A stretch of 64,000 nt of DNA, taken from NCBI GenBank assembly GCA_020047815.1, contig JAIFNG010000058.1:1-64000 (forward strand), written 5' to 3'. Of this stretch, positions 60,740 to 64,000 are shown piece by piece. Every line of letters starts with the position of its first letter. Positions within the stretch are counted from its first letter, which is position 1. Origin of the DNA: Anaerolinea sp. (GTDB lineage: Bacteria; Chloroflexota; Anaerolineae; Anaerolineales; Villigracilaceae). The notes beneath the pieces were generated by a model, which saw only the letters and a list, made by a program, of their open reading frames with translations, was not told where the DNA came from and searched no databases. Made by a program: the position numbers and the translations under genes.

Positions 60740-62974
60740 ATGACGCTCGAGAAAAATTCACTTCTTCATGATCGCTATCGTGTTATAGAAATTCTTGGGC
60801 AGGGTGGCATGGGTTCTGTTTACCGCGCAATAGATGAAAATCTGGGTGTGGCGGTCGCCTTGAAAGAAAATCTATTTACGACCGAAGAATATATGCGTCA
60901 GTTTCGCCTTGAGGCAGTTATCTTGGCGAACCTCCGACACCCAAATTTGCCGCGAGTTTCTGATCATTTTGAACTAAAAGATCAGGGGCAATATTTGATC
61001 ATGGATTTTATCGAAGGGGAAGATCTGCGCAATCGCATGGATCGGCTTGGCATGATCTCAGAAGAGGATGCAGTGCAGATCGGTGCTGCAATGTGTGACG
61101 CGCTTGCCTACTTGCATAGTCGCAAGCCTCCCATTTTGCACCGCGATATCAAACCCGGTAATGTGAAGATCACGCCGGATGGGCATATATTTTTAGTGGA
61201 TTTTGGACTTGCCAAAGTATATCAGGGGGGGAACCAGGCTACCACAACCGGAGCGCGTGCCATGACACCCGGGTACTCTCCACCTGAACAATATGGTACA
61301 GCGCGCACTGATCCCCGGACAGATTTTTATTCGTTGGGTGCAACCTTGTATGCGGCTTTGACCGGAGTGATCCCTGAAGATGGGCTTGCGCGTGCGATGG
61401 ATAATGCTCAATTAACTCCGCTTCGCAAACGTAATACAAAGGTTTCCCGCCGTATTTCCTCTGCGATCGAGAAGGCGATGGCAGTTGACCCAAGTGATCG
61501 TTTTCAGAGTGCGGGGGATTTCAAGAAAGCTTTGCTTGGGGCAGGTTCTCAAACCCAACAAACTCCGGGTAATCATATTGTTGCACCACCTCCTGCTGAT
61601 GCTTTTCTGCCGTCTGATCCAAATGATGCAGTTGATTCTTTGACTACCCCCAAAGAGAAAACACCGACCCGTCAGCCTGCGGGCGTTGTCTCTTCGACGC
61701 CGCCCGTTGTTGCCGAGGAGCAGCCTTTTGTCTCTCCACTTAAAAAGCAAAAGGAGCGTGAGCGCAAACGCCGGTCTGCTTTGATACGTTTTGTACTTAT
61801 TTTAATTTTATTGGTTTTTGCGAGCCTGCCTTTTGTGGCACCGGGAATTTTTCCGAATAATTTCCGCAATGCAATTTCATATTTAGCGCCGACGAGCACG
61901 GCTACGCCATCTTCACTCCCCAGCCAAACACTCACCGGAACTTCCACCGAAACCCCCACTCCAACCCCCACTGCCACGTTAACGCCTGAGCCTCCAACTC
62001 CAACTTTAACGGCCACGAACACCCCATTACCCATCGTGAGTAGTACTGTGGGTGTTGAACCAACAATTGTGGATACCGCCATTCCCACCATTGATTTACC
62101 GATTCCCCTGGTTGGCGGTTCAGGACAGGTTTCATATGTGTCAGACCGGACTGGCTTGCCGCAGATCTATCTTGTTAACCTTGCCAGTCAGGCATTGATC
62201 CAAATGACCAATATGCCCGAGGGTGCATGTCAGCCTGCCTGGTCTCCAGACGGCGAAAAAATGGTTTTCATTTCTCCATGCAAGGGTATGGATGAAATAT
62301 ATTATGGTGCCAGCCTGTATTTGATCAATGCAGATGGCAGTAACTTGACGATGGTTGGCTCTGTTCCGGGTGGTGATTTTGATCCTGCGTGGTCACCTGA
62401 TGGCAGGTCGATTGCTTTCACTTCACTGCGTACCGGTCAGATGGAAATTTTTGTCTTGAATGTGGATGATCTGACATCCATGACGCAGATAACAAAAGGC
62501 GCAAAGAGTGTGGAGTCCCGCCAGCCTGCATGGTCACCGGATGGATTGCAGATCGCGTATGTAGTCAAGCGATTGGGCGTGTACCAGCTTTGGGTTATGA
62601 ATGCAGACGGTACCGGGCAAAAACAAATTGTTCGCAGTGGTGTGACGTTCTTTGATTATCTTCCCAATTGGTCACCCGATGGGCAGTTGATCTTGTTTAA
62701 TCAGCGCTGCGCTACCGCCTTCTGTTTTCCATACCTTATGAGCATCTCTGCTGTTGACCGTTCTGTAGAACAGGGTTCCTTTTTGAAGTTAAATATCATA
62801 TCGATAGAAGATGTGCAGTATTCACCGGATGGTTTCTTTCTCCTTTACGAAGGGGAGGAAAGTGATGAGAATAACGATATTTACTACATGACCGTTACGG
62901 GAGCAAACATTATTCGCCTCACAACTGATGATGGCATGGAATTTGACCCTGCCTGGAGACCTTCTGGAAATTGA
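60740..62974 (+). CDS. Ser/Thr protein kinase with C-terminal TolB/WD40-like repeats
   Basis: GQGGMGSVYRAID, HRDIKPGNVKI, DFGLAK; Pro/Thr linker; repeated PAWSPDG motifs. Confidence 0.96.
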   Translation: MTLEKNSLLHDRYRVIEILGQGGMGSVYRAIDENLGVAVALKENLFTTEEYMRQFRLEAVILANLRHPNLPRVSDHFELKDQGQYLIMDFIEGEDLRNRMDRLGMISEEDAVQIGAAMCDALAYLHSRKPPILHRDIKPGNVKITPDGHIFLVDFGLAKVYQGGNQATTTGARAMTPGYSPPEQYGTARTDPRTDFYSLGATLYAALTGVIPEDGLARAMDNAQLTPLRKRNTKVSRRISSAIEKAMAVDPSDRFQSAGDFKKALLGAGSQTQQTPGNHIVAPPPADAFLPSDPNDAVDSLTTPKEKTPTRQPAGVVSSTPPVVAEEQPFVSPLKKQKERERKRRSALIRFVLILILLVFASLPFVAPGIFPNNFRNAISYLAPTSTATPSSLPSQTLTGTSTETPTPTPTATLTPEPPTPTLTATNTPLPIVSSTVGVEPTIVDTAIPTIDLPIPLVGGSGQVSYVSDRTGLPQIYLVNLASQALIQMTNMPEGACQPAWSPDGEKMVFISPCKGMDEIYYGASLYLINADGSNLTMVGSVPGGDFDPAWSPDGRSIAFTSLRTGQMEIFVLNVDDLTSMTQITKGAKSVESRQPAWSPDGLQIAYVVKRLGVYQLWVMNADGTGQKQIVRSGVTFFDYLPNWSPDGQLILFNQRCATAFCFPYLMSISAVDRSVEQGSFLKLNIISIEDVQYSPDGFFLLYEGEESDENNDIYYMTVTGANIIRLTTDDGMEFDPAWRPSGN

Positions 62975-63224
62975 TCCATCATGAAAGGCATAAAAAAACA
63001 ATAACCCTGCATAACTGGAGTTTTGATTTTCTACCGGGGACATTCTGGTTACGCCGAGACTTAATCAGTCTTTTGGCGGTTTGATTGTTTATTCTGGGAA
63101 AATCCCCTACCCAAACGCTGGAATATGGTTTTTCTTAAGAACCATCCTGCTGCCAGCGGAAAATTTGTAACATTTCATAAAAATATTAGGTATAATACAG
63201 TACTAATAAAATAAAAAATGGCAT

Positions 63225-63338
63225 GTGCAGTTGAAATTCTCTCGGCGCAAAGGGTCAGCAAAACAACGAGGCATCACATTGAAAACCATCCAAGCTGGGC
63301 AATTTATCTTTCGACGGGATGTATATGGACCAATTTGA
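63225..63338 (+). CDS. Possible small basic ORF (37 codons, GTG start)
   Basis: VQLKFSRRKGSAKQRGITLKTIQAGQFIFRRDVYGPI in the frame other than the 63218 track ORF; overlaps the next gene start. Confidence 0.3.
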   Translation: MQLKFSRRKGSAKQRGITLKTIQAGQFIFRRDVYGPI

Positions 63339-63864
63339 GGAACATGCCTCAAAAGAAGAGTTTGCTATCTCATTATTCCAATCGCGAGAGAAAACAATCA
63401 TAGATTTAAATGACACTGTTCTTCCTGTAGCCATTTGTGATGAGCCTGAATATATTAGTTATACATGTATATTACTTCCCGGTATCCTTTCACACCAATT
63501 AAAGACCGAAATGGAAGGGTCCTTGCGGCAGCGGATGAAAGAGATTTGTACTTCATTCAACGGGCGAATTGAGTTTATCACTGTAAACCCTGATTATTTT
63601 CAATGGGGGTTGTCTGTGATTTCCTCTGCACAAATTAGTCAAATCATGCAGGAGATCCGGTACGGTCTTTCCCAAATGATTCTGTCTACTTTTGAGTATA
63701 TTCGCAGCGAGAATTCGGCTGACGATTTTTGGGCCACGGGTTACCTCGTTTTATTGGGAATGCGCCCTGATTTGGAAGATATGATCAAGCAATATATTCG
63801 CATATCACGCCGACTGCAAAACTTCTCCCTGCCTGATCTTCAGGATTTGCATGTGCGAACATAA
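63319..63864 (+). CDS. Y1 (IS200/IS605 TnpA)-like protein lacking the HUH motif
   Basis: Collinear with IS200 TnpA: LRQRMKEICTSFNGRIEFITVNPDYFQWGLSVISSAQISQIMQEIRYGLSQ...DDFWATGYLVLLGMRPDLEDMIKQYIRIS. Confidence 0.72.
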   Translation: MYMDQFEEHASKEEFAISLFQSREKTIIDLNDTVLPVAICDEPEYISYTCILLPGILSHQLKTEMEGSLRQRMKEICTSFNGRIEFITVNPDYFQWGLSVISSAQISQIMQEIRYGLSQMILSTFEYIRSENSADDFWATGYLVLLGMRPDLEDMIKQYIRISRRLQNFSLPDLQDLHVRT

Positions 63865-63884: not shown

Positions 63885-64000
63885 ATGTCGAATATAACCA
63901 TAAAAAGAGCGGGCGAACTGCTAAGAGGAATTTTTGAAATCTTGTGGGATAACCCCGATGGATTAACCGCGCGGGAAGTATTATCGCGCATCCCGCAGGT
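63885..64000 (+). CDS. Truncated ORF, N-terminal winged-helix-like segment
   Basis: MSNITIKRAGELLRGIFEILWDNPDGLTAREVLSRIPQ..., open to the window end. Confidence 0.55.
   Translation, partial: MSNITIKRAGELLRGIFEILWDNPDGLTAREVLSRIPQ

Follow-up and report, generated by a model that had tools for sequence, protein, structure and literature searches.

Evidence for exaptation of a Y1 transposase domain lacking its HUH motif, a candidate signalling module in Anaerolineales

Introduction

Close to the end of a 64,000-nucleotide stretch of Anaerolinea sp. DNA (contig JAIFNG010000058.1, positions 1 to 64,000; hereafter "the window") lies an intact gene for a 181-aa protein that resembles TnpA, the Y1 transposase of IS200-type elements, and in which the HUH motif is no longer present. 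The question that this locus raises is why such a protein has been kept, and what it might do. A sequence-only reading of the window had regarded it as a domesticated transposase that may bind DNA hairpins without transposing. Here we show that the protein singled out by that reading is real, but that it is not an isolated case, being merely one branch of a much larger family of HUH-less Y1 proteins.

Results

The product of the window gene consists of a disordered N-terminus (residues 2-29) and a Y1 domain that spans approximately residues 44-168 (Table 1). Its homology to TnpA, which had been proposed from an alignment by eye, was confirmed by Pfam, by a profile search against solved structures and by structure prediction. 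Thus, Pfam Y1_Tnp (PF01797) matches residues 48-161 with an E-value of 3.3e-11 and 43.8 bits (cut-off 23). The AlphaFold model has a mean pLDDT of 75.7, with values of ~80-95 in blocks of the domain and a disordered N-terminus, and its top Foldseek matches are TnpA structures (E ~1e-8, TM-target ~0.7-0.78). At E <0.001, the Foldseek matches in the PDB were TnpA structures and one RAYT only, and the closest superposition was that on PDB 2fyx, with an rmsd of 2.5 A. Furthermore, all 55 of the 55 family members analyzed match Y1_Tnp, and the profile built from these 55 members retrieved solved TnpA structures, ISDra2, Sulfolobus and IS608 TnpA among them (2fyx 2e-12, 2ec2 3e-12, ISDra2 2xm3 7e-11, IS608 2a6m 1e-5). 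Chance resemblance to TnpA is ruled out by the Pfam, profile and fold searches.

Table 1. Features of the window gene and its surroundings.
Feature	Position	Strand	Remarks
Intergenic region before the operon, ~345 bp	62975..63318	no strand	no IS end recognised
Standalone HUH-less Y1 (TnpA-fold) protein, 181 aa	63319..63864	+	intact ORF
Former HUH site, PDYFQW; Tyr and Gln in place of the two His; family consensus PxYxQW	63589..63606	+	alignment
Former catalytic Tyr segment, KQYIRIS; Tyr159 retained, Ser in place of the metal ligand Gln at Y+4	63787..63807	+	alignment
Start of second operon gene, 283-aa Mrr-like restriction-endonuclease-fold protein	63885..64000 (on to contig ~64736; = L034:7886-8737)	+	

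Inspection of the former active site upheld what had been read there: the two HUH columns are occupied by Tyr and Gln, and the catalytic Tyr has kept its position (KQYI). The third metal ligand is gone too, the window protein having YIRIS where TnpA has Y---Q; the Gln at this Y+4 position is a metal ligand in IS608 (PMC6006769). The window protein therefore shares with active TnpAs the Y1 fold and the catalytic Tyr, and lacks HUH, Y---Q and signs of IS ends or mobility. The gene is present in single copy at a conserved operon position, and end hairpins were not recognised. As anticipated, neither a TnpB nor obvious end hairpins accompany it: the TnpB-type zinc-ribbon domain (PF07282) was not detected across the whole assembly, and the sole compact inverted repeat near the gene is a 9-nt stem (63125-63145) found nowhere else in the genome. 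No REP-like partner was detected in this search of the gene's surroundings. The same genome holds two more Y1 copies, both HUH-less (three in total), and beside these three it encodes two ordinary HYH class-2-like Y1 proteins (L185 and L186, on contigs C153 and C177). Upstream of the operon, at 60740-62974 (+), the window encodes a serine/threonine kinase fused to WD40-like repeats, a gene that did not cluster with genes at other operon loci.

Profile searches identified homologues in 53 of 61 relatives, and the family profile matches 195 of the 262 near-complete Anaerolineales genomes, a count in which a few weak matches may be ordinary TnpAs. The named relatives that carry the family are MAGs of Anaerolineales/Anaerolineae (Chloroflexota). 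In the class sample, matches outside the order were mostly ordinary transposases with DHVHLLV-type motifs. The catalytic residues were then surveyed in 142 distinct aligned domains, 129 of which are family sequences. The combination of HxH (or HxR) with Tyr occurs solely in ordinary transposases outside the HUH-less family: HxH plus Tyr is found in 0/129 family sequences, neither His is present in 107, and the two members that do have HxH both contain Phe in place of Tyr. The catalytic column holds Tyr in 85 of the 129 members and Phe in most others, and the Y+4 column holds Thr in 97 and Gln in only 4.

Other positions have become characteristic of the family. Near-invariant, family-specific residues (window numbering) are C50, H59, Y93, Q95, W96, S118, the DFWAPG block and R164, and basic residues are conserved at R55, R83, R114 and R164; the KYR-type motif of TnpA is replaced. 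Two further near-invariant Trp residues are lost from the window copy. Of the 28 positions that are near-invariant in the family, this copy departs at 8, more than any other standalone copy. Its own constraint is therefore less certain than that of the family, and may be relaxed.

In a maximum-likelihood tree, the HUH-less family forms one clade (99/100) apart from the HUH-positive TnpAs; within it, the standalone copies group as a clade of their own (99/96), nested among copies fused to other domains, and the genes of flagellar clusters form one clade (100/98), many inner branches being uncertain because the tree rests on only 131 columns. The HUH-less Y1 domain is under strong purifying selection: the median dN/dS is 0.106 over 282 pairs (dS 0.05-1.5), and the window-type pair L106/L107 gives a value of 0.067 at a dS of 0.25. 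HUH-positive TnpAs carry a mean net charge of +9.2 and family members one of +2.4; the domain of the window protein, with a pI of 5.4, is acidic. Among orthologues, then, the loss of HUH is conserved under purifying selection and the neighbours are conserved as well, which is the opposite of the scattered, decaying pseudogenes that had been named beforehand as speaking against domestication.

The fused form is a protein of ~550 aa composed of a receiver, an MglB-like roadblock, a disordered linker and the HUH-less Y1 domain. Structure comparison matched the receiver to Spo0F (TM 0.81) and the roadblock to MglB (TM 0.71). D54 and K102 of the receiver are invariant, while the usual acidic pair was not seen; the protein thus has the phospho-acceptor Asp, the Lys and the roadblock fold of a receiver-roadblock protein. 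The gene for DNA polymerase I, polA, is directly downstream in nearly all loci, usually at a distance of ~3-650 bp, and a fused gene upstream of polA is present in another order too (L223). The 89%-complete assembly that contains the window yielded no fused gene. The receiver-roadblock-Y1 fusion is probably the ancestral context of the HUH-less Y1 domain. We did not adopt the view that a receiver-roadblock protein without Y1 represents the ancestral state: L219 and L220, which encode such proteins upstream of polA, fit this view, but the C-terminus of the L221 protein reads by eye as highly diverged Y1-like, and gain and loss of the domain are both possible.

Standalone copies occur in two settings. 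In flagellar clusters, the gene adjoins an MCP-like gene and genes for a DUF1521 protein, MotA, MotB and FliL (the names MCP, FliL and most Fli/Flh are based on sequence reading, those of MotB, DUF1521 and FlhA on Pfam). FlhA is encoded by 9 of the 57 genomes of the genus, and all nine carry the flagellar-type gene, versus 1 of the 48 genomes without FlhA, that one being a fragmentary assembly (Fisher p=1e-9, uncorrected for relatedness). Among the 105 genomes searched in the taxonomic family, 14 encode FlhA, and in 13 of these a flagellar-type or second standalone copy is present at listed coordinates, G436 being left out. At one locus, the DUF1521 protein next to the flagellar-type gene (L036:13730-14677, minus strand) contains the sequence GDPHVD, which resembles the autocleavage site of NopE-type proteins.

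In the other setting, to which the window gene belongs, the HUH-less Y1 gene opens an operon and is followed by genes for an Mrr-like protein, a TPR protein, a histidine kinase (7TM-PAS-GAF-HisKA_3), a NarL regulator, an MraZ-like protein, a second NarL, an AAA ATPase and a second TPR protein. The gap between the Y1 and Mrr genes is 20 bp at the window locus and 20-49 bp in nearly all loci, and that between the Mrr and TPR genes is 1-18 bp in nearly all. The operon is also present in four other genera (L198, L199, L201 and L204). Within the genus, 16 of the 17 Mrr-like loci have an HUH-less Y1 gene upstream; the remaining one, L228, has the operon without a Y1 gene, and the Y1 domain is therefore dispensable there. 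At L039, conversely, the Y1 gene is present and Mrr is absent. The window Mrr-like protein has lost the D and QxK residues of its active site (GKINLIA / VQIIHK). As side observations, the Mrr-like gene of L206 (G007:C32) is preceded by a tandem pair of HUH-less Y1 genes, and the two TPR proteins of the operon (L034:8743-10083 and L034:15669-18431) have a common N-terminal domain (ALQWNRPSILLAIHDS...), which is also encoded as a standalone gene of ~164 aa and had no NCBIfam match in the copy tested.

Discussion

The HUH-less family can be set against several known systems. With IS200/IS605 TnpA (IS608, ISDra2) it shares the fold, the Pfam family and, in about two thirds of its members, the position of the Tyr; it differs in the loss of HUH and of the Y+4 Gln, in having neither IS ends nor TnpB, in its vertically conserved gene neighbourhoods and in its less positive charge. 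Like the HUH-less proteins, RAYTs (TnpA-REP) are domesticated Y1 proteins of low copy number, but they keep HuH and Y---NP, motifs that the HUH-less family lacks, and are paired with REP hairpins. In DR_0177 of Deinococcus radiodurans (PDB 2fyx), the first HUH His is likewise a Tyr (PDYVHL), but the second His is kept and the protein is annotated as a putative transposase; we know of no signalling context for it. MglB/roadblock and receiver-domain signalling proteins correspond to the N-terminal portion of the fused protein, and we found no description of a transposase domain without its catalytic site as the C-terminal module of such proteins. TldR offers a parallel in that it too is an IS605-family protein exapted for host regulation, as an RNA-guided flagellin repressor (PMC13418256); it derives, however, from TnpB and not from TnpA, and its fold is unrelated to that of the HUH-less Y1 domain.

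Exaptation of the Y1 domain is supported by these data: the family is a single order-wide clade whose members have intact ORFs, keep their neighbours and are under purifying selection, so that the domestication envisaged in the sequence-only reading is strongly supported. It is most improbable that the window gene is a decaying transposase remnant. It is indeed the most divergent standalone copy, but its ORF is intact, it belongs to a single clade under purifying selection, and it is single-copy, without IS ends or TnpB; the conservation of the operon across genera, together with selection, contradicts a pseudogene or decaying IS. The other half of the earlier interpretation, DNA-hairpin binding, did not gain support, given that most of the basic charge of TnpA has been lost and that the gene contexts are those of signalling and motility. 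More broadly, the domain might still bind nucleic acid, whether a DNA hairpin, single-stranded DNA or RNA, as a non-cleaving regulator or recruiter acting, for example, in transcription control or replication and repair. The proximity of polA and Mrr genes makes this the main rival explanation, and the retained fold, the several conserved Arg residues and the MraZ-like neighbour are in line with it. Nevertheless, the drop in net charge, the acidity of the window copy and the replacement of the KYR-type motif argue against it, and no conserved regulatory hairpin was shared in an alignment of 11 regions upstream of the operon; we therefore consider it rather unlikely.

It has also to be considered whether the window operon is a conflict or defence system, in which the HUH-less Y1 and the decayed Mrr would be kinase-controlled decoys or dominant negatives. 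Inactive effectors are a theme of Kaur et al. 2020 (PMC7159879), which discusses them without mention of transposases, and the operon contains TPR and AAA proteins, has a patchy distribution (17 of the 57 genomes of the genus) and encodes, at the window locus, an Mrr-like protein that matches PADLOC candidate PDC-S02 (81 bits). Inactive-effector conflict systems are marked by a MoxR-vWA couple or other named NTPase cores; the AAA ATPase of the operon is of unassigned type. Yet such a system leaves the polA-linked and flagellar forms unexplained, the PADLOC search of the operon gave no defence match for the AAA ATPase or the HUH-less Y1, and the D and QxK of Mrr are intact in some operons (L041, L042 and L047), which makes this explanation improbable. 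We rejected the idea that a new defence system could by itself account for the findings, PADLOC matches being limited to the Mrr-like protein and generic TPRs.

We favour the explanation that the HUH-less Y1 domain acts as a non-catalytic protein-interaction module in signalling, because it is fused to receiver and roadblock modules, occurs alongside kinase/regulator and flagellar/chemoreceptor genes, and has lost its metal site and most of its basic charge. The roadblock and receiver modules point to interaction only by association. Early in the Anaerolineae, an IS200-type Y1 domain would have joined a receiver-roadblock protein whose gene neighboured polA. The fused domain would have lost its three metal ligands and been retained as a non-catalytic alpha/beta module, and a copy of it may later have become a standalone gene. 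Of the two branches of this gene, one would have settled in the flagellar/chemotaxis cluster and the other, including the window gene, would have become the first gene of the Mrr/TPR/kinase/NarL/MraZ-like/AAA operon. The domain would most likely work through protein-protein interaction, linking signal input to output as an adaptor or as a scaffold for dimerisation. Taken as a whole, from capture at polA through ligand loss and copying-out to the adaptor role, we consider this explanation probable.

We found no description of the HUH-less family in open-access text. The classification of TnpA-Y1 proteins removed sequences without complete core motifs as non-functional (PMC6006769), and HUH-less families may therefore have been systematically overlooked. 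The domesticated Y1 transposases described so far, the RAYTs, retain the nuclease motif; the HUH-less family does not. Since the nuclease site is erased, the fold is kept order-wide and the contexts are fixed, the function of the fold is very probably unrelated to cutting. Concrete candidate partners can now be named, namely the flagellar motor and MCP, the histidine kinase and NarL, and the receiver-roadblock protein. We lean towards the view that the HUH-less Y1 domain is a widespread and previously unrecognised signalling module of the Anaerolineales, which would have been acquired once, fused at polA and redeployed to flagellar and two-component partners, and whose conserved C, H, YxQW, R, S and DFWAPG residues may form a repurposed pocket in or close to the former active site.
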